From Turnera subulata (lineage: Eukaryota > Streptophyta > Magnoliopsida > Malpighiales > Passifloraceae), in NCBI GenBank assembly GCA_028386065.3, contig JAKUCV010001875.1:19630-83629 (forward strand): 64,000 nucleotides of DNA, given 5' to 3'. Shown here piece by piece: positions 28,809 to 53,758 of this stretch; positions within the stretch are counted from its first letter, which is position 1; each line of letters opens with the position of its first letter. The notes under the pieces are model-generated. The model ran no database searches. It saw only the letters and a program-made list of their open reading frames with translations, and had not been told where the DNA came from. A program made the position numbers and the translations under genes.

Positions 28809-29421
28809 ATTTCTGTCTAGCAATTTTAGCATAGTCATGTCTATGGTGCCTGCTTCCAGTTATATTTACTTTGATGTCAGTGTCTATGTCTTGCAGTTTT
28901 GTGAACTGATTACAGTTTTCTGCTAGCTGTTTAGCTTTAAGGATATTAAGCTTTTGGATATTGAGGCATTTAGTTGCCATTTTATGTTATATCGGTTTTG
29001 CTTTTCGACATTTTATCTGTCTGGTGCCTTTTCTAATGATTTTTCCCTGCTATTTTGTTCTCAATTTTGTTCTTATATTCATTATGATAGCCCTGTGGTT
29101 TGTTAATTCTTGCATTTTCTTATTTTTGGTGTCTTTAGTATTAGGAATCCAAAGTGGAGATTGTTAAAGATTTGTTGCTTTGGATGTTTCATAAGCGGCG
29201 CGATGTTTTCGATACCATTTTTCTTTGTCGAAACGTATGCCTTGCGACTTTACATTTATTCTTTTGATTTCTCCTTGGCACCTAAATTTTGGTAATAGGC
29301 TTGTGAACATTGGTACCATGTTCTTTTATGGCGATTGATTGGGTCCAACTTCTGGGCCTTTTTCGCTGCCGATTGTTTCATTAATAGCAATTCATGTGTA
29401 GCCTACAAAAAAAAAAAAGAG
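28809..29421 (+). other. EF1-alpha 3' untranslated region and downstream flank
   Basis: T-rich sequence after the stop codon, as in plant 3' untranslated regions; I cannot fix the polyadenylation site. The Copia C element begins 613 bp after the stop, after a run of A that ends in its target site 'aagag' (29417-29421). Confidence 0.5.
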
Positions 29422-29643
29422 TGTTATAAAAGAGTGTAATTTATGGAAGGATTTTGGAAGAAGAAGAAAAGGATGGGGGAAGGAGATAGGGAGAACTCGG
29501 GTTGCAACCCGTTTTCATCATCTCATCTTTTTCTGATTTTCATTCTCATATATATAATACAAATGGAGTGGACAAAGTTTAGTTTAGTCCCTCAAAATGA
29601 CATTCACTACATTTTTATCCCTCAAAATAATAAATTTATAACA
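29422..29643 (-). mobile_element. Copia C 3' LTR (222 bp)
   Basis: Plus strand TGTTATAAAAGAGTG to AAATTTATAACA, with TG and CA ends. The pyrimidine tract ctccccctt at 29644-29652 is the polypurine tract of the minus strand (AAGGGGGAG) touching the LTR. It differs from the other LTR by C versus T near 29573 and near 29620. Confidence 0.92.
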
Positions 29644-35221: not shown

Positions 35222-35239
35222 CAATTCGTGCTGATAACG
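35222..35239 (-). other. Candidate primer-binding region of Copia C
   Basis: Directly inside the right LTR the minus strand reads CGTTATCAGCACGAATTG. Its position defines the 5' end of the element. TATCAGCACG differs from the usual initiator-Met primer site, so the priming tRNA is not assigned. Confidence 0.55.
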
Positions 35240-35461
35240 TGTTATAAAAGAGTGTAATTTATGGAAGGATTTTGGAAGAAGAAGAAAAGGATGGGGGAAG
35301 GAGATAGGGAGAACTCGGGTTGCAACCCGTTTTCATCATCTCATCTTTTTCTGATTTTCATTCTCATATATATAATACAAATGGAGTGGATAAAGTTTAG
35401 TTTAGTCCCTCAAAATGACATTCACTACATTTTTATCCTTCAAAATAATAAATTTATAACA
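35240..35461 (-). mobile_element. Copia C 5' LTR (222 bp)
   Basis: Same length and ends as the left LTR, with two substitutions. An open frame from 35261 through 35797 starts in the LTR and runs into flanking DNA; it has no recognisable domain and is considered fortuitous. Confidence 0.92.
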
Positions 35462-36893: not shown

Positions 36894-39868
36894 ATGGGGT
36901 CTATAGAAAGATCAAAGAAGAAAGTTCAGTTATGGAAGAAAGCTGCAGTCCATTTTGCTCTATGCTTTGTTATGGGATTCTTCACTGGAATTGCTCCAAC
37001 TGGTAAGGCCTCATTTTTCTCTAATAGAGTTGTTGCATCAAATAAGTCACAGTTTTCGCCACAGCCGGTTGAAATGTTGCACCCAGCAGTAACACCCCAA
37101 GCCAGGAATGCTAGCCAAAGTTTGATAGCTGAAACTCCAGTGCCAACTCCAGCAAATTCCAGAGAATCAGAAGGTGCAAATCTCTTGGAGGAAGAAGAAG
37201 AAGAAAACGGACCGAAGTTGACACCAAGAAGGCTTATAATCATGGTCACGCCAACAAGCACCGATGATAAGTATCAAGGGGTGTTTCTGAGGAGACTAGC
37301 CAATACTCTAAAGCTGGTTCCTCCTCCACTGTTGTGGGTTGTAGTGGAAGGGCAGTCAGATTCCAATGAAGTATCAGAGATACTGAGGAAAACAGGAATC
37401 ATGTATCGGCATTTGGTGTTCAAGGAGAATTTTACAGATCCTGAAGCTGAATTGGATCATCAAAGGAATGTTGCACTGAGGCACATTGAGCATCACAGGC
37501 TGAGTGGGATTGTTCATTTTGCCGGCCTTTCCAATGTTTATGACATTGACTTCTTTGACGAGCTAAGAGATATTGAGTAAGTTAAATATTGCCCTAAGTC
37601 TTCACTTATATTTATGTTCCTTATACATTGGTTATGAATGTCACTAGCTGGTCTGGTACTGTGATTGCAGTTTAGAGTCTTACACAACATGCCTTAATTA
37701 GTACAGAACATGAACATAAACATATACTACAGAAAGAGAAACCTCAGAAGATGGAAAAGTTTGGGGTTCCATCTTTTTCTGTTTCTTGGACTTGGCTGGT
37801 GGGTGGATTCCTCAAAGCTTAAGCAATGCTTAAACAAATTTTTAGTAAGCAGCTGGAGAATGCGATTGCTTAGCTGCAACAATCTGATTCTGAAGTTACA
37901 TTCATACTAGAAATGTATAATTGGAAAACGATGGAAAAGAAAAAAAACCAACATCCATTAATTAAATCCAGTGACCTCCAACAGATTTTAACCGTTTGAT
38001 TGTCTGACTTACTCTAAATTAACACTTGACTGAAAACAAAAACAAAGATTAGGTGGTTGGCTTTCTTGTTCCGTGAAGAAAACATTTGGTATTACTTAAT
38101 CATCACTCTACGAAAATTGGTAATGTTTGTTTGTTAGGTACCAAGTTTTCAAAACGTAACAATCATGCTAGTTAAATCCTTTTTTTTTGGCTCAGAGAAT
38201 TGGCGTTACCTGATGTTGGATAATAGAACAAAATTAACGACTGTCTGTAACATAGTATCTCTCTCAGAATTTTGTAAAAAAAAAAAAACAGAAGACAGGT
38301 AACAAACATTTGACAAAACGATTCTGAGGAAGGTAACTTGGGCACAATTAGGAAAGACCTGTTCTAACTAATGCAAGAATTGGTCAACTGTTTTAACCAA
38401 TAAAGTGATGAAAATGTCAAGACCAAGGCGTAGTAAATATCATTGGATTAATTTGTGTGTTTTGGGAATGGATATTGGATCAATTTGTTGAGTATTTTAT
38501 ACATATGCAGGGTGTTTGGAACATGGCCAATGGCATTACTTTCAGCAAACAAGAATAAGGTTATAATTGAAGGACCCGTATGTGATTCCTCTCAAGTAAT
38601 TGGATGGCATCTAAAGAAAATGAACAATGAAACTGATGCGAAACCCCCAATTCACATTTCAAGTTTTGGTTTCAACAGTTCAATTCTTTGGGACCCTGAG
38701 AGATGGGGTCGTCCTTCATCCGTTCAGCACACTACACAGGTATTACCTATCTACCACATATCCTTTTGGATTAAAGATTCAGTCCTTCCAACTTCTATCA
38801 AAGAAATCTCATATCTTGTGGCTGACTAACTAGTACCATTTATGTTCTCAAAGTAGAAGCTTCTGTTGATCTGTTCCCCTTTGCAATGATTCAGCCATGC
38901 AAAATAGACAACATATGCTTCTTTATCTACTTTTTATGCGTAGAAGGATACTTTCATGTGGTTTCAAAAAACTTTGGGGAAAAAAAAACAAGAATGTGGG
39001 CTTCAAAATGAAAATAGGATACATACTTTCATTTCATGTGCATACATATGAAGCTAATCACTCCTCCATATGCACCTCTGGGGCTTGGTGGGCCAATTAT
39101 ACCAACTAGTAGATGCGGTTGGAATTAATAAACTAATTCTGATTAGTAGACGTTTGGCACAACCAACAGCAACTGATTCTTTTACTTGTTAGGATTTTAT
39201 TAGTGGGGAATCTGTGTCTTCAATATCAAAGTTGCAGAAATTGTATAAGTGGTTGTGTCTGATATCTAAACCTATCAAGGTAACTAAAAAGCCCCATGCA
39301 TCTATATCCTCTGCCAGAAGACATAATGAAGACAAGCAGTAGAGTGGCACGGATAGGCCTAATCACAACCCTTTTTTATATATAAAAAAAAAAAACAAGC
39401 AAACAAAGAGCAAAAAAACTTGGAGGGTCAGTGGACGTATCTATCTGTTGATTTCTGACTCTTATGAAGGATATCAACTTAGTTCAATCAAGAGTGTGCT
39501 TCCCTTTAACAGTTTTGGAGAAGAAGAAATGTGATTTGTCATTTGTTTTTTTTTTTTCTCTACTCTCTGATTGTATTTGGGTTAGTAACTTATGAGTAAA
39601 GCTTTCTCTTGTTTGTTGTCCTTTTCATAGAATTCCATCAAATTATGGGTGTTTTCTTTTTTAAAATTATTGGTTTTTCATCTTACAGAACTCCATCAAA
39701 TTTGTCAAACAAGTTGCACTTGAAGATGAGAAGTTGAAAGGAATCCCACCAGAGGACTGCTCTAAAATCATGCTTTGGCGTCTTCAACTTCCCATTGGCC
39801 AAAAAGCACCAATTGATGATCATAGCCTTCTAACAACTGCATCCGACATGGATATTAAACAGAGATAA
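36894..39868 (+). CDS. IRX9: IRX9, GT43 family protein of the xylan synthase complex
   Basis: Three exons, 36894-37576, 38511-38739 and 39689-39868, join in phase to 363 residues (GT-AG introns of 934 and 949 bp). IRX9 works with IRX10 and IRX14 in the Golgi to lengthen the beta-1,4-xylan backbone of secondary walls. It is a type II membrane protein: basic head MGSIERSKKKVQLWKK, membrane anchor at residues 17-35 (AAVHFALCFVMGFFTG), a variable stem with an acidic run (LLEEEEEENG), then the GT43 domain from about 112 (RRLIIMVTPTSTDD). That domain includes HRLSGIVHFAGLSNVYDIDFF, VFGTWPMALLSANKNKV and FNSSILWDPERWGRPSS. The DxD position of GT43 enzymes reads GLS (about 211-213), which marks IRX9 rather than IRX9L. 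ATG 36894 was chosen because the protein then begins MGSIERSKKK as in IRX9; the frame extends upstream only through a non-ATG codon. No disruption is seen. Confidence 0.95.
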
Positions 39869-40231: not shown

Positions 40232-40509
40232 TTAGTGCCCGTTTGGTTTCTGGCTTTGGGAGCTCTGGGTAGGGATTGAACCCGATCTCACCGTTTGGTT
40301 GAAGAAAAAAATAAGGCGGGATCGGGATCGGGGTGGGATTGAATTCCATAAACCCGGGATAGAAGGCTTCAATCCCGCTTTTCAATCTCACCCGCGAGGC
40401 GCGGGATTGAAAAGTCGGGATAGGGATTGAAATTCCATGACGGGCGTGTCCCTGTCCTTTTTCCATTAATACGATTTTACCCCCATCCATATAAAAGGGT
40501 TTTTTTTTC

Positions 40510-40760
40510 CTGTTTGAGAATAGGCAGACTCGAGCCCGACACTCTCTCTCCTCCTCGTCCAACGTATTTCGTCTTCCTCTCCTCTCTTTTCTTCTCTTCT
40601 TCTTCTCCCCCGATTTCCTCTTCCGATTCATCAATGGAAATTAGGGTTCTTGACAGAAATCATGCTCTTCAGCTTTCTTCTTCCTCTTCTGAATCGTTTC
40701 CCCTTTGCCTTTACTCATCCAAACCCAAAAAAATTGAAAAGCCCCAATTTATACCCTAAG
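40510..40760 (+). other. Exon-like segment of unknown origin inside the Harbinger-like element
   Basis: A pyrimidine-rich leader-like run is followed by ATG 40634 and a 41-codon frame (MEIRVLDRNHALQLSSSSSE...). Composition is gene-like and unlike the AT-rich surroundings. I recognise no family; it may be the captured 5' part of a second gene, and whether it is transcribed is unknown. Confidence 0.35.
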
Positions 40761-41070
40761 AACCCTAATATCCAATTCCGAAATTGAAGATGTAATTGGG
40801 TTATAATACATGTTTCAAATCTTGTTACCTGTCCATTTAGCTATGATTCATCACTTATTCAACTTCTATTTCAGTTGTGTAGGTGGATTGCAGTTTGAGG
40901 GCTCGACGGGTTGGTTTGAAGCTTGAGGGCTCGACAGGTAAAACAAATTCCCCTCTTCGTTTGATTTTTCTTTCTGGGTTTTGAGCTTGTTTTTAAATTA
41001 TGTCTGTGCGCATCAACATCTTGAAAAAATTGATAGGAGTGTAATAGAGAAGTCTGTTCTTGTCTGTCCA

Positions 41071-41436
41071 GGCTTCATATGGATTTCATCTGAATTGAAA
41101 GGCCTAAATGATGATTGTGAACATTTTGAAAGCTTTCCGCCGGGTCACTTGTACTCGACCAAATCAGGTGGATTAAGGCGATGGTATAATCCTCCTTGGT
41201 TCTCTGAGGCTATTCCATCAATTACATATGATCCACTTGCTCTAAGGCATGCATTTGAAAATGTAAGGGCATTAATAATTTTAAATTATATAAGTCAATT
41301 ATGTATTATTACTCCTCTGATGGAAATTCTTGAATGTAGGAATTTTTATTGGAGTAATTTATAGTTTATGGTACATATATATGCAGCCTGTAATCAAAAG
41401 GCTTATGACTGATGCTCCTTTTGGAGTTCTGTTCTG
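41071..41436 (+). pseudogene. Asparagine synthetase gene fragment (two exons and their intron)
   Basis: Exon-like 41071-41262 encodes FIWISSELKGLNDDCEHF, then FPPGHLYSTKSGGLRRWYNPP and WFSEAIPS, ITYDPLALRHAFEN. This is the end of the glutaminase domain and the linker of glutamine-dependent asparagine synthetase. A GT-AG intron (41263-41386) follows at the place expected in plant ASN genes. The next exon reads VIKRLMTDAPFGVLF and then diverges, just before the ATP-binding loop SGGLDSS. Both the N-terminal catalytic Cys region and the synthetase domain are absent, so no enzyme can be made. The intact intron indicates that genomic DNA, not cDNA, was captured. Confidence 0.88.
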
Positions 41437-41779
41437 TAATCACCAGTTAAAATCAATGCTTGGTCATCTTCATTTTGAAGTTTTCTTCTTGAGAAAAAAC
41501 ATGGGTCTTCATAAGAAAATCCTGCAGTTAGGTGATTATGCTCCTAAATACGGATAATTCAATTGATTCTGGAAATAAGCCAGTAAAGCATAGCCTAGAA
41601 ATATCAGTGTGAAATTTGTAGATACATTTCACTTTCTGCTGCCGTTCACAGGAAAATGAAATTTTTATGCATTAGTTCTAGGATGCATGCATACAATTCA
41701 TTGTTGATTAGTTGCTGTTTTGATATAAATGCCATAGTTTGTACCATCTTGCAATAATATTACTAGCTTATTGGCATTT

Positions 41780-41940
41780 GCTATTATCATCTAAACTAGC
41801 TCAGTGGCTATACAAGTTGCAGCTAAAGAAGTTGCTGACGATGGATGTGAGGAGCACGGTGCAAAGACAAGATATTTCATTGGAATTCCTTAATGCCACT
41901 ATTTCCATGGTTGCCGCCAAACTCGTCATTTAGGAATGCA
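41780..41940 (+). other. Second exon-like stretch in the Harbinger-like element
   Basis: One frame reads VAIQVAAKEVADDGCEEHG and then KTRYFIGIP before a stop. Composition suggests coding ancestry and capture from another gene, but I cannot name the family. Confidence 0.25.
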
Positions 41941-42973
41941 ATGAAGTTAAGGGAACTTTCAGTTAGGCTTGGGGGTCAAGGAGTAGGGTAGAGATTAAAC
42001 TGATGTACAGATGATAAACCGTTGATAACATAAGAGAATACTTGTTTTTTAATATTATGGTCATGTTTTTATATGTTTTCCCCTGTAATTTTCATTCCCA
42101 TTTTCCCTATGAGCAGGTATTATGGTATCTTTTCCTTTATGCCTTTTGGATGCGCCTCCTTTTCCGTGAAAATGGCCAAAATTTTATGGCCCTGATCTAG
42201 TTATCCAGCCTGCTTTGTTGGTTTGACTTGAGACTTGTATAGGTCAAATGTGTTAAATCATTCGTATGTTTGTCTTGGTATTGCTTATTTTCATGGCAAA
42301 TGAAAACAATAGTAAGTTTGGATGTTATAAAAACAATAGGTTTGGATGAAAACAAATGAAAGAAATGGTATGTGGTGCACTCCTTGATGACATTGTGGTT
42401 TTATTTTTAATGTGTAATAGATGCTTTGTTTTTATGCAATTTGGATTGGGTTTCATAAAATAATACTTGTGAAAAATTTACATGCCCATCTAATTTTAAT
42501 GCAATTTTTATGTCCATACTCATTTTAATGAAATTATGTTTTAGTTTCAAAAAATAATAAATGTAGAAAAAGTACATGTCAATAAAAAAATTTATGAAAT
42601 GATGTCTTGGTTCTAAAAAATAATACATGTGAAAAACAAAATTAATGCAATGAGGTTTTAGTTTTAAATAATAATATATGTGAAAAAATTACAATTTAAT
42701 AAAAAAAATTAAAGGAAAGTCAAATGACAAACCCAACAACCAAACACCAAATTCAAACTTGAGGGCAAATTGGTCATATTGTCATCTAACCCAATCCCAA
42801 ACCCACAAACCAAACACAATTTTAGACTATAATCCCATCCCAAGCTCAAACCCAAACCCAGCAACCAAACAGAATGGCTTGGGATTGATCCCAGGCTCAT
42901 TCCCATCCCACCCTGGGATCAATCCCAGGCTCAATCCCATCCCAGGCAATCCCACGAACCAAACGGGCCCTTA

Positions 42974-43535
42974 GTGGTTTGGTATTGGTGGGTGCTCAAA
43001 GGTTACATATATTTGGATGGGCCTTTTTTACGCAATTTGTTGGAGTATTTGGTTGTGTAGGTTCAATCTAGTTTTTCAAAACCAAGGAGTGCAGTGGAAA
43101 AAATTATTTGATATCATTCTGCTGAGACTTATTTCATGGTGCAAAGCTTCTCATCTTGTAGCATCCGTTATACAGTGTTGATGTAGACTGTTGGAACTGT
43201 GTTTTCAAGTATCTGTTGCCCCTGTATCTCATGCTTTATCAGTATACTCTGCCATATGTTTCCAGAAAAAAAAAAGAAAGTTTCTCATCCTGGTTTCCCA
43301 TATCGATACTCTGATGTGTTGATCTGTGCAAATAGTCTTAAGCAGTGGCGAGGCGCTAATTTCACTCTTACTTTTGCATTTTTTTTATCACCAGAAACTT
43401 ACTATCATTGGTATAATAATACATATACAGTACAATAAATGTTCATCCCAGGGCAGGCCAAAACAATACAATTAGCCAGCACCTGAGGATCTGGTTTTAG
43501 TATACAAAATATGCAAAAGTGGAAATGGCAAAGAG
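42974..43535. other. AT-rich spacer
   Basis: About 560 bp between the Harbinger-like element and the RNase H remnant. No supported gene; a few short frames have no domain. Confidence 0.45.
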
Positions 43536-43995
43536 GCCAGCTAATTCGGTGGTAGCTTTCCTTTGGAGAAAGCTGATGCAAGAAAGTGAGCAGCCCGATT
43601 GGCTCTTCTCTTCATATGAATGAATCTGCACTGCAAAACACATAGAACTATGCACATCTATATCATGCAAAATTGCTTCAATGGACCACGACCTCTTCTT
43701 CTTCTCTATTGTTGCCTGAGTGATAGCCTCCAAACAGTCACCTTCAATGATTACAAGATTCCAAGCCCTTTTAGAAGCTAGCAGGACAGCAGATTGCAGC
43801 ACCTCAGCTTTAGCCGTCAAAGCAGATGAGGAGAGCATCTTTATGACAACTCCAACAAGAAATTTACTGTCTTCATCTCTCGCAACGATTCCCCCGGAAG
43901 CTCTCCTTATTGAACGATCGTAGGATGCATCACAATTAAGTTTAACCCATCCCGAGGGAGGGGCCTTCCAGACTGAAGAAGAGGAATTATGAACA
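43536..43995 (-). pseudogene. RNase H-like (RVT_3) remnant, LINE- or host-derived
   Basis: The minus-strand frame gives VWKAPPSGWVKLNCDASYD, RRASGGIVARDEDSKFL, SALTAKAEVLQSAVLLASKR, and VIIEGDCLEAITQA. That is the RNase H fold of plant LINE-type 'reverse transcriptase-like' proteins, with the acidic residues D (NCDAS), E (AKAEV) and D (EGDC) in place. A frameshift near 43635 moves the end, FIHMKRRANRAAHFLASAF, into the next frame. Only this domain survives, without RT or endonuclease. It may be the 3' end of a 5'-truncated LINE or a stand-alone RVT_3 gene copy. Confidence 0.75.
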
Positions 43996-44299
43996 AACAC
44001 AATGAAACGCCCGCATCCCAATTTGTTATTATAAAATATAAATAAAATATGAAAAGACTATGCCACAGAGCAACAAACAAATACAACATGCTAGGCATAT
44101 AAATTTCACCGGCCACTCCGCCGAGAACATAAACAATATCACATAACATTAGCACATTACTGTTAATTGGAGTGATTGATAGGAGTAACCAGCAAGAATG
44201 GAGTGATTCTAGGTCTGACAAAATTTAATTCCTCGCAGAAAATCAATCAGATCAAAAATCAATGGTGATTAGAAGCTAAAAAAAGAAAAAAATATAAAA

Positions 44300-46785: not shown

Positions 46786-48177
46786 AATCAAGGTCGTCCT
46801 CTGGGAGCAGGTTAAGTACCAATCGCTTAATAATTCGTGATCGTCTAGGCAAATAAAGATTGGATTTGAGTAGAAAATAAATAGCTGAAATAATAAAGGT
46901 GGATTCTCAATATTCAAAAGATGTCTAGGACTTCGGGCGCTCACTTGCCTATTCTCAGATGCTTTACTTTAAAACATTGCACAGAATGATCATGCAGCAT
47001 GCATGCATAAGCAGACTATGCAACCACAAATTACCCTAACTCCTGAATTTTCTAAGTTCATTGAAAGATAGTTGATTAAACAGAATAAATAACCCACTCT
47101 CGTGGCGAGACTTAAATCCTACTTAGCTATTTCAACTTCGTGTTCACTAGTGAAGAAACAACTAAGGCATTCATGCACAGTCAACTTAAGCAAATTATAT
47201 TCTTCACCAGAAGGTCTTTCTTCCTCAAGGTAAGTTCCTAGTGTTCAACCTATGCATATCCAGCAGATTATTGACGTTGTCACTTAACAATTCTCTACCT
47301 AGAATTTATACTACCTAATGGCCAGTTAAATAGCATAGTTAAGTGCCCTAGGATTGAATCAATGAACAATAGATCATTTAGGAATTAAAAGCAATTCATA
47401 AAACAAATAGCATCATTGAATAGACAAGCTACCTCCCCTAATTCTTAGACTTTAAAGATTTAGCTCAACATAACAAGAGAGAAGAAAATACTTATGAATT
47501 TCATTCCAGGCAATGATCAAGGAATTACAAGAATAAGAACTTGAGTAAGAACTTGAACAAAGCTCTAAACTGAATTTCCTTCCGCTTCCTTGAAGAACTG
47601 ATGAAGAACTCCTCTTAAATTTGAGAGAGAATGGAAGAATGAGAGAACGAGAGAGTGTGAAGTGTGTCCCTTCCTCCTAGAATGCTAAGGTATTTATAGG
47701 CTAGGAAAGGGTGGTTAGGATTTCTCTCTTTTGAATTCAAAACTAGGATCTAATCTAATTAAATTCAAAAACAAACCTTTTGAATTTAATTACATGGATA
47801 AATAACAAATAAATAATTCTAATTTAGATTCAAACAATATCTTCAAAATATCCTTGGAAAATAATCTTGGATAATGGAAATTTGAACTTCTGAATAGCTG
47901 AAAATGCTCCGCACATGCAGGTTGCGCATAGGAGGATAAATCCTCATATTATCTTCAAATCTATCCAAGATAATTAATCATCTTATCTCTATCTTCCAGA
48001 ATCTATCCAAATCTTCCAAATCCTTTTAATTTAAACCTGAAATCATCAAAAGCTAAATGTAGAGTTTATTAAATCAAAACTAAATGAAAAGCTAACTAAA
48101 TAAATAACAATTTAATAAAACAAAGCCCAAATCTATAAACTAAAGGCCCAAAATGTGTGTATAACTCATACACATCA
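46786..48177 (-). mobile_element. Athila-like 3' LTR (terminus lost)
   Basis: Collinear with 52391-53758 with scattered substitutions and small indels. It ends CATCA at 48177, followed by the polypurine tract (plus 48178-48192, minus CAAGTTTGGGGGTGT). Confidence 0.88.
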
Positions 48178-49857: not shown

Positions 49858-52292
49858 TCAGTGATAGGATAAGACTTTCAATTGAAGGGCACAAGCAACT
49901 TCTGCTGCATTTCGATCCTTTGCGGTTCTACTATTGGTTGTGCATGCCAAAATGGGATCCATAGGGTCTTTCTGCGAAGAAGATTGTTTTCTTGCTTCGT
50001 CAATCACTTCAAGAAAATAGCACGAATGACCTAAAAAGTCGTTTTTCTCTGCTTGTAAAACGTCAAAGCTGACTGTTTCAGTTCCAATCTTGAAGGTTAA
50101 CTTCCCAATTTGAACATCAATTATTGCTCCTGCAGTTGCCAAAAATGGACATCCCAAAATAATCTGTGTTTTAGTATCCGCTTTTACATCAAGGACAACA
50201 AAGTCCATCGGGATGAAGAACTTTCCAACTTGCACAGGGACATCTTCAAGGATACCAACAGGACGCTTGATCGAACGATCTGCCAGCTGCAGTGACATCG
50301 AAGTTGACTTTATATCCCCCATATTCAGCTTCTTAACTATGGATAGTGGAATGACACTAACACTTGCTCCCAAATCACACAACGCCCTTTTGATGCTAAT
50401 CTTGCCGATGTTACAAGAGATAGAGAAACTCCTAGGATCTTCTAACTTTGGAATATGCTTATTTTGGATAATAGCACTACATTCCTTAGTTAATGATATT
50501 GTTCCAATTTCCTCTAGATTTCTCTTCCTTGACAAGATCTCTTTCAAGAATTTGGCATAAGCTGGCATTTCAGAAAGGACTTCTGTGAATGGGATATTCA
50601 CATACAACTTCTTAAGCACCTATAGGAATTTGCTAAATTGTTGATCATATTTGGCTTTCTTTAATCTTCTAGGAAAGGGAATAGGGGAAACATATGGCTT
50701 CACCTCTTCTTCTTTCTTTGGTTGTGCTTCTTCAGACACCTTCTCTTGCTCAGCATGGCCATGCTGCTCCTTTTTATCTTCTTGCACAGACTTCGTGTGC
50801 TTAGTCGGTGCAATCATCTCATACTGATTTCCACTCCGTAAGGTTATTGCGCAACATTGCTCCTTAGGATTTACTTCAGTATGCGCATGCAACCTATTCT
50901 TGCTTCCAGCTAGTTGCATCTTCAATTGGCTAATCTTTGAAGTTAGATTAGCTATTAAGTCTATTTGCTTTTGTTGGAACTCCAATTGTAGGCGCTGAGC
51001 TTCCATCTGTTGGCGTTGATTTTCCTTCTGTAGGCATTGACTTTCCATAAATGAATGCATAAATATTTGAAAGTCATTCTTTGGTGGTTGTGGAGTTGAT
51101 TGTTGAGATTGAGGATTATAACCTCTTGTAGGACACCCTGGAGGTCCTCTACTACTACCTTGTTGACCACCCTAGGTACTTCCATTCTGATTGGGACAAG
51201 CAGAGTGTGCATGAGCACCCCCGCAATTTTCACACGGTCCCTAGGTTTCCTTTCCTCCCAGGCTGTGCAAAAGATAATCCACCTTTGAGTGCAACAAATT
51301 TATAGCCTCTAGCTCCAAAACTCCAGCGGCCTTCTTCATGGGCAGTCTTTCAACTGGCCATTGGAAAGTGTTAGCCAAAATTCGGTCTAAAAGCTCGAAG
51401 GCTTCTTCAATTGGCATTGTCATTATTGTTCCTCCTGCTGCAGCATCTATAGTTCCCTTGATTGACTCACTTATTTGGCATAGAATGTTTCTAGCAGCAT
51501 CTAGTCTGGCAGACCATGATGTGGGCACCTTCGGAGCAAGTCTTTGTACCATTCTCATCCATCATATAGAGATTCACTATCCTTCTGAGCAAAGGTTAAA
51601 ATCTCATTTCTGAGTTTGATTGCCTTGCTCGGTGGGAAGAATTTTGATAGGAAGGCTTGTGACAAGGCGTCCCATGTCTGAAAAGTTCCAGCTGGAAAAG
51701 AATTTAGCCATGCCTTTGCTTTATCCCCAAGAGAGAATGGAAATAAGCGGAGGCGGATGGCATCAGCGGTCACTCCATTCATCTTAAAAGTATCACAAAT
51801 TTCCAGGAAACTTTGAAGATGTGTGTTGGGGTCATCCAAGGCTGATCCGCTAAACTGCGATCCTTGCACTATGCCGATCAGCGAAGGCTTGAGTTCAAAG
51901 TCGTTCGCTTGAAGAGCTGGGCAAACAATACTTGGTTGCAAAACCTCAGGCCATGGGATGACAAAGTCTCGCAGTTGCAACCTTTGATTCACTGCATTGA
52001 CAGGAGGATCAACCTGCACATCTCCCCTTCCTCCAGGTCGAATTTCATCGCCCTCAACATGAGGAGGTAGGCTATTGTTCCTCACAGTGTTGTTTCCCAT
52101 ATCTTCTTCTGAAGAGTCTGTTTCTTCTTTGTCAGCTCTCTTCTCCAGGAGTAGTTTTCGGAGAAGCTTGCACGTCTTCTCGATTTCAGGATCAAGTGGT
52201 AAAGGCGGTCCCTTACTTCTTGTCCTGATCATACACCTGCTAGAGCCCTGTGGAAAAGAAACAGAAGGAAAACGTAAATAATAACAGGCCAA
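49858..52292 (-). pseudogene. Athila/Tat-like gag and protease remnant
   Basis: Read from 52292: a gag N-terminus (MIRTRSKGPPLPLDPEI), the gag core (FELKPSLIGIVQGSQFSGSA, DPNTHLQSFLEICDTF, RLRLFPFSLGDKAKAWLNS, WDALSQAFLSKFFPPSK). A frameshift near 51556 follows, then DAAAGGTIMTMPIEEAFELL, the zinc-knuckle-like PCENCGGAHAHSACP, a stop near 51240, a Gln-rich coiled-coil stretch (about 51060-50930) and PFPRRLKKAKYDQQFSKFL. Another stop leads into the aspartic protease at 50619-49858: RALCDLGASVSVIPLS holds the active-site DLGAS, with QIILGCPFLATAGAIIDV further on. Gag packages element RNA and the protease would mature the proteins. Only three or four breaks occur over 2.4 kb, so decay is modest. 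Pol is missing. Confidence 0.9.
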
Positions 52293-52355: not shown

Positions 52356-53758
52356 TGAACGCTATTCTGCAAGTGCACAGATAGTTGTAGCAATCAAGGT
52401 CGTCCTCTGGGACCAGGTTAAGTACTAATCGCTTAATAATTCGTGACCGTCTAGGCAAATAAAGATTGGATTTGAGTAGAAAATAAATAGCTAAAATAAT
52501 AAAGATGGATTCTCAATATTCAAAAGATGTCTAGGACTTCGGGGGGTCACTTGCCTATTCTCAAATGCTTTACTTTAAAACCTTGCACAGATTGATCGTG
52601 CAGCATGCATACATAAGCAGACTATGCAACCATAAATTGCCCTAACTCCTGAATTTTCTAAGTTCATTGAAAGATAATTGATTAAACAGAATAAATAACC
52701 CACTCTCGTGGCGAGACATAAACCCTACTTACCTATTTCAACTTCTTATTCACTAGTGAAGAAACAACTAAGGCATTCATGCACAGTCAACTTAAGCAAA
52801 TTATATTCTTCACCAGAAGGTCTTTCTTCCTCAAGGTAAGTTCCTAGTGTTCAACCTATGTATATCCAGCAGATTATTGATGCTGTCACTTGACAATTCT
52901 CTACCTAGAATTTATACTATCTAATGGCCAGTTAAATAGCATAGTTAAGTGCCCTAGGATTGAATCAATGTAGATCATTCAGGAATTAAAAGCAATTCAT
53001 AAAACAAATAGCATCATTGAATAGACAAGCTACCTTCCCTAATTCCTAGACTTTAAAGATTTAGCTCAGCATAACAATAGAGAAGAAAATACTTATGAAT
53101 TTCATTCCAGACAATGATCAAGGAATTACAAGAATAAGAACTTGAGTAAGAACTTGAACAAAGCTCTAAACTGAATTTCCTTCCTCTTCCTTGAAGAACT
53201 GATGAAGAACTCCTCTTAAATTTGAGAGAGAATGGAAGAATAAGAGAATGAGAGAGTGTGAAGTGTGTCCCTTCCTCCTAGAATGCCAAGGTATTTATAG
53301 AAAGGATGGTTAGGATTTCTCTCTTTTGAATTCAAAACTACGATCTATTCTAATTAAATTCAAAAACAAACCTTTTGAATTTAATTACATGGATAAATAA
53401 CAAATAAATAATCCTAATTTAAATTCAAACAATTTCTTCAAAATATCCTTGGAAAATAATCTTGGATAATGGAAATTTGAAGTTCTGAACAGCTGAAAAT
53501 GCTCCGCACAGGCAGGTTGCGCATAGGAGGATAAATCCTCATATTATCTTCAAATCTATCCAGGATAATTAATCATCTTATCTCTTTCTTCCAGAATCTA
53601 TCCAAATCTTCCAAATCCTTTCAATTTAAACCTGAAATCATTAAAAGCTAAAGGAAGAGTTTATTAAATCAAAACTAAATGAAAAGCTAACTAAATAAAT
53701 AACAATTTAATAAAACAAAGCCCAAATCTATAAATGTGTGTATAACTCATACACATCA
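52356..53758 (-). mobile_element. Athila-like 5' LTR (1403 bp)
   Basis: Minus strand TGATGTGTATGAGTTATAC to a TTCA end at 52356. It is the intact copy. Relative to it the left LTR has an additional 14 bp 'actaaaggcccaaa' near its start and several other small differences. Confidence 0.88.

Follow-up and report, generated by a model that had tools for sequence, protein, structure and literature searches.

How did pieces of an asparagine synthetase (ASN) gene come to lie between transposon ends downstream of IRX9 in Turnera subulata? We analysed a stretch of 64,000 nucleotides (hereafter the window; contig C1701, positions 19630-83629) from an assembly of 518.7 Mb in 7,125 contigs. A first-pass annotation of this sequence had read the interval 40235-42970 as a Pack-type PIF/Harbinger element with TTA duplications, and its ends, its duplications and the existence of many copies were all confirmed.

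A non-autonomous PIF/Harbinger element downstream of IRX9

The non-autonomous element occupies 2,736 bp of the window (40235-42970). Its borders read TTA followed by GTGCCCGTTTGGTT on the left (40232-40248) and AACCAAACGGGCCC followed by TTA on the right (42957-42973). Accordingly, two TTA target-site duplications (40232-40234 and 42971-42973), read directly in the sequence, enclose a left terminal inverted repeat (TIR) on the plus strand (40235-40248) and a right TIR (42957-42970), which reads GGGCCCGTTTGGTT on the minus strand. Both repeats were recovered by an inverted-pair scan (12 bp, at most one mismatch, 60-6000 bp apart), with expectations taken from 60 Markov-resampled windows. One inverted 12-bp pair flanked by TTA/TAA and containing at least 7 G/C was found in the window against 0.03 expected; without the G/C condition there were ten inverted pairs against 2.2 expected, and these were mostly AT-rich. 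The CCCGTTTGG core is present at the two element ends only within the 64-kb window (expected 0.19), and the scan found no second, internal pair of ends at three or fewer mismatches inside the element. With a length of about 12-14 bp and one mismatch, the inverted repeat is shorter than the 40-bp ends originally described. The right end is identical to the GGGCCCGTTTG-type TIR, and the left end carries one mismatch that is common to all 35 copies examined. Because GT starts the left end in 35/35 of these copies, and the 3-bp duplications agree in 22/27, a duplication of 5 or 7 bp (CTTAG or CTTAGTG) was ruled out.

A profile scan of the six plus-strand ORFs of the element detected no transposase, and its interior gave no DNA match to the transposase-bearing copies L029 and L030, in agreement with the annotated absence of a transposase from the 2.7 kb. 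The adjoining IRX9 gene (exons 36894-37576, 38511-38739 and 39689-39868) encodes a protein with 100% identity (363 residues) to T. subulata IRX9. From its stop codon (39868) to the element we measured 366 bp, close to the 370 bp given previously.

Several other features of the window were recorded. These include a 186-aa ORF on the minus strand at 43497-44057, roughly 0.5 kb past the element, whose product has an RNase H-like domain (RVT_3, 7.9e-7), and two direct repeats of about 1.4 kb (46786-48177 and 52392-53758; 94.6% identity) resembling the LTRs of one element. Two 223-bp copies (29421-29643 and 35239-35461; 99.1% identity) lie on the upstream side of IRX9, and the plant snoRNA snoR71 was located at 51511-51617 (67.9 bits).

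The same ends enclose different contents across the genome

A genome search with the left 236 bp of the element, in which the best 40 of 93 candidates were scored, returned at least 42 matches, itself included. The expectation that the same ends recur around differing contents was upheld by at least 41 other left-end matches and by the varied interiors described below. As 38 of the 42 listed matches begin at query base 1, the left boundary of the element is fixed. Both ends were present in 26/34 other fetched copies; the right end was unrecognisable in eight (L015, L026, L031, L032, L033, L040, L043 and L047), partly at contig ends. Counting the window copy, 22 of the 27 two-ended copies had identical 3-bp duplications (10 TTA, 9 TAA and one each of ATA, GTA and TAT), with TTA/TTA or TAA/TAA in 19/27, and duplications were unequal in five (L021, L029, L036, L037 and L044). 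No pair among the 300-bp flanks of these 27 copies was similar at 1e-6. L015, which is outside the 27, agrees with L016 in ten flanking bases, and the two may be one locus represented twice.

Copy interiors form separate groups with differing contents. The transposase-bearing group consists of L030 and L029 (~6.2 kb), identified by their interior match to each other. L030 shares the ends of the window copy. One of its ORFs matches DDE_Tnp_4 (PF13359, 2.8e-13) and another Myb_DNA-bind_3, a Myb/SANT domain (PF12776, 3.5e-7); two further ORFs gave no domain match. L029 was grouped with L030 by the interior match together with look-alike ORFs, the DDE and Myb domain matches themselves coming from L030. 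One ORF of L029 (5589-6047, plus strand) contains an RNase H1 N-terminal domain (Cauli_VI, PF01693, 4e-16), and a remnant resembling this ORF was seen by eye in L021. With a 3-bp TWA duplication, a GGGCCCGTTTG-type TIR and relatives encoding DDE_Tnp_4 and Myb/SANT proteins, the window element belongs to PIF/Harbinger.

Other groups hold different material. A protein-kinase fragment was found in L035 and L046, below Pfam's cut-off (7.2e-5 and 2.6e-5, respectively), and a DUF1442 fragment in L048, above that cut-off (7e-8); L014 is a MITE-like copy of 493 bp. No Pfam domain was detected in the ORFs of L010 and L021, nor in the cargo frames of L012, L039 and L023 (three plus frames each) or L019 (one plus frame), and gene cargo is therefore not established for every group. 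The left parts of L038 and L042 are 99% identical to the kinase-bearing L046. In their interiors, by contrast, these two copies match the L039/L041/L044/L045 group, a pattern that would fit recombination between ends and cargo.

The cargo derives from an ASN gene and a LON-domain gene

The captured ASN fragment (40993-41433, plus strand, 441 bp) begins with 79 bp of intron and continues with a complete exon (41072-41262), the following intron (41263-41386) and a 47-bp part of the next exon (41387-41433), which is truncated mid-exon at 41433. The annotation had claimed two ASN exons with their intron; the first exon and the intron stand, the second exon is a stub, and the upstream intron sequence is an addition. 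An own-genome search with the cargo, in which all 11 candidates were scored, aligned 40993-41433 to C6220:27467-27915 (L049) at 92% identity, in one continuous match across exons and intron, as anticipated for a parental gene. In this parent the open ASN reading frame runs on (LLSGGLDSSLVA...) where the window copy breaks off. Among element copies, the same search found the ASN block in the window copy only. At the protein level, the first exon matched plant ASN proteins at 86% and up to 88% identity; Pfam profiles alone did not recognise the ASN exons. Using 8 of 120 listed ASN proteins, similarity within the window was confined to the element interior, which speaks against a longer ASN pseudogene continuing outside it. 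The piece differs from its parent at ten of 237 compared bases (6 nonsynonymous and 4 synonymous codons; dN 0.033 and dS 0.079 on 79 codons), counts that give no clear sign of selection.

The remaining cargo, all given here on the plus strand of the window, is a mosaic. Two short patches follow the ASN block, one of 41 bp (41495-41535) with 95% identity to contig C3002 and one of 48 bp (41549-41596) with 90% identity to the minus strand of contig C1821, both from the own-genome search; the matched contigs may not be the direct sources. Next to them, 41608-41735 matches C6727:106922-107053 at 80% in the same search, about 0.9 kb upstream of a LON-exon match on that contig. The latter corresponds to 41811-42104, where the final exon of a LON-substrate-binding-domain gene (C6727; Tsubulata_015527) has been captured together with the gene's 3' side; identity is 87% over the exon part (41811-41974) and 77% over the whole stretch as the 3' side carries on to ~42104. 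The product of the C6727 exon is the C-terminus of a LON-substrate-binding-domain protein. It is 67% identical to Malus and Pyrus proteins containing PF02190; with the Turnera model Tsubulata_015527, identity reaches 98% across two thirds of the query. This model appears to be a fusion, in the annotation, of the LON-domain gene with a dienelactone-hydrolase gene. No source was found for 42105-42256, and among the matches listed it occurred only in the window copy and a sister copy, L009 (contig C4689); this search, with 42005-42734, scored the best 40 of 90 candidates and is not exhaustive, as the LON parent was absent from the list.

The gene pieces thus match two contigs (C6220 and C6727), and the patches match two more (C3002 and C1821). 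Two exon-like segments of no known origin had been annotated besides ASN; one is now the last exon of the LON-domain gene, and the other (~41434-41600) still has nothing beyond the short patches. The element was also rightly called chimeric and gene-capturing, a second host gene having been captured along with ASN. No transposase lies inside it, and it contains host-gene DNA with parental copies elsewhere (ASN 92%, LON 77-87%), as in Pack-TYPE elements.

Cargo lies between family modules and behind a common leader

The cargo is bounded by two plus-strand modules of the transposon family. The 5' module (40235-40990) includes the TIR, a TATA box, a leader, a splice donor and the start of an intron. 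L048 matches this module as far as about base 756, and the transposase-bearing L030 as far as about base 676 (82% identity). The TATAAA box of the module (40490-40495, plus strand) is found at base 255-256 in 21/27 copies. A putative leader splice donor, CAG/GTAAAA, lies at 40938-40943 (plus strand), and GGTAAR occurs at bases 662-739 in 16/27 copies. The donor stretch is lost in L009, the donor is changed in L010, and L014 is the short MITE. The 3' module (42257-42970) was delimited by module comparison and the genome search with 42005-42734, in which 22/44 other listed matches start at query base 253-277 (window 42257-42281), the rest start further in, and none starts before query base 253.

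The first 650-756 bp are common to several groups with differing cargo. The window copy, C4655 (L052, 171 bp read) and L048 have a common leader up to GGGTTTTGAGCTTGT, after which each runs into different sequence, the points of divergence lying within about 4 bases of one another. When all copies with different cargo are compared pairwise, the common left block ends anywhere between bases 196 and 838, a spread that partly reflects divergence, deletions or runs of N. Given this scatter, a fixed cargo junction in all groups was not borne out.

This layout suggests that transcripts may run from the transposase leader into the cargo. The predicted spliced RNA, joining 40937 to the ASN exon at 41072, contains no ORF above 50 codons unless an extra intron is assumed. 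A longer chimeric ORF (142-145 codons) was rejected, as it needs an extra intron with poor donors and arises in 2/14 donor/acceptor combinations. The predicted transcript would therefore be at most a short chimeric or a non-coding RNA. A more ambitious interpretation is that the family constitutes a resident exon-expression cassette. In this view the transposase promoter, the leader exon and the splice donor would stay fixed, and host DNA would have been exchanged again and again at a cargo junction located a few dozen bases further downstream. We put this forward tentatively, and lean against it. If true, each new cargo would be born under a promoter with a ready splice donor.

A sister copy records part of the order of events

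The closest copy found, L009, has 95.6% identity over the first 652 bp, followed by a join of base 652 to base 1771. It is located at another site with its own ATA/ATA duplication and holds the LON-derived part inside the same modules. The presence of the LON piece there, with a separate duplication, means that the chimera transposed after LON capture. This comparison of the two sites indicates that the LON cargo was mobilised as a unit after its capture, the ASN piece being known from one copy.

The ASN block is absent from L009, and as the closest relative this copy might be taken for a precursor that predates ASN capture, the block having been added later in the window copy. However, L009 also lacks the leader sequence at element bases 653-756, which is kept by L048 and partly by other groups, and its right part starts within the LON-derived stretch. 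Together these observations show that L009 carries a deletion. It was therefore rejected as a pre-capture state, and a late addition of ASN is very unlikely; the ancestor of L009 likely already held the ASN piece.

Origin of the chimeric element

We consider it very probable that this locus is a non-autonomous Pack-type PIF/Harbinger element whose ASN and LON cargo replaced the transposase genes, a reading that takes in the steps of repair, mobilisation in trans and leader splicing set out here. In a line of the PIF family, the transposase genes between the 5' module of ~756 bp and the 3' module of ~714 bp would have given way to DNA copied from the ASN gene and the LON-domain gene, on at least two contigs, with short patches between. 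The position of the cargo in the element corresponds to that of the transposase genes in L030. Copying would have taken place through template switching while a gap or a stalled fork was being repaired. The element would then have been moved in trans by the transposase of its relatives acting on the common ends, and the family's own promoter would transcribe it, with the leader spliced onto the captured exons.

Host DNA could also have been acquired through the fusion of two neighbouring PIF insertions, the DNA between them being mobilised via the outer ends while the internal ends decayed, as in the Pack-CACTA/Pack-TYPE model. That model has been proposed and supported with maize and rice examples in passages of PMC8903248, and the Turnera cargo does have a complete module on both its 5' and its 3' side. 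Fusion takes one contiguous stretch, whereas the ASN piece, the LON piece and the patches match four different contigs, and no internal TIR-like sequence is left at three or fewer mismatches. Repeated fusions, or source contigs that are in truth neighbours, may fit this origin too. Overall, we regard fusion as unlikely, and because the cargo is pieced together from several sources and includes short patches, template switching in gap repair appears to fit better than fusion of neighbouring insertions. It is extremely unlikely that the ASN and LON pieces are ordinary gene-duplication remains caught between two unrelated transposon ends. Our analysis produced no point in support of this, and a single TTA duplication encloses the whole unit, both modules belong to a many-copy family with the same layout, both limits of the ASN match (40993 and 41433) fall within the element, and L009 holds the LON-derived part in the same modules elsewhere.

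Comparison with known gene-capturing transposons

Pack-PIF elements have already been described in maize and rice (Gisby and Catoni 2022, PMC8903248), so that Harbinger-type capture is less rare than the first-pass annotation stated. In passages of that paper these elements are likewise non-autonomous, with a PIF-type TIR, mostly TTA/TAA duplications, host-gene fragments, conserved ends and variable internal parts. Members of maize cluster 18 average 535 bp and contain gene pieces of 163 and 58 bp (same passages), whereas the Turnera element is 2.7 kb long, holds pieces of two host genes and has its leader and donor in common with a transposase-bearing copy. The word 'promoter' is absent from the main text of PMC8903248. 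The melon Harbinger AndroPIF has the same GGGCCCGTTTG TIR and encodes a transposase and a SANT-type DNA-binding protein; unlike the Turnera element, it is not described as containing captured host genes in passages of PMC11161486.

Pack-MULEs, of the Mutator superfamily, also contain host-gene fragments within a TIR element, but the 3-bp duplications and PIF-type DDE relatives of the Turnera element do not agree with such an assignment. Mutator elements have a longer target duplication. In rice, 91% of Pack-MULE transcripts have their start site in the TIR or inside the element, according to a passage in PMC1947982. The soybean CACTA element Tgm-Express1 similarly combines several captured gene fragments in one element and gives chimeric spliced transcripts, but those isolated began at the host F3H1 promoter, outside the element (passages of PMC1947982). 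For animal Pack-TIRs, gap-filling and FoSTeST models explain captured DNA by switches of template, with microhomology, between the transposon and filler DNA (passages of PMC8277862), which resembles the process suggested here; those elements are animal ones, and neither 'harbinger' nor 'PIF' occurs in the main text of that source. Within a limited literature search, passages of PMC8903248, PMC1947982 and PMC8277862 do not describe a leader and splice donor common to cargo-bearing and transposase-bearing copies. The leader-plus-cargo layout is hence the newer part of our findings, Pack-PIF as such being already published.

Biological significance

Research on Turnera subulata addresses its distyly supergene; according to passages of PMC9862265, the three genes there probably arrived through independent duplications. 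A transposon family that moves genes in this genome is worth knowing about, and a connection to the supergene is not implied by these data. Gene shuffling of this kind is known; here several of its stages are visible together, in a eudicot PIF/Harbinger family whose transposase-bearing copies, MITE-sized copy and differently loaded copies exist side by side. From these copies the sequence of capture, deletion and re-transposition can be reconstructed in part. If the common transposase leader drives the cargo, this would suggest why captures can become expressed genes.
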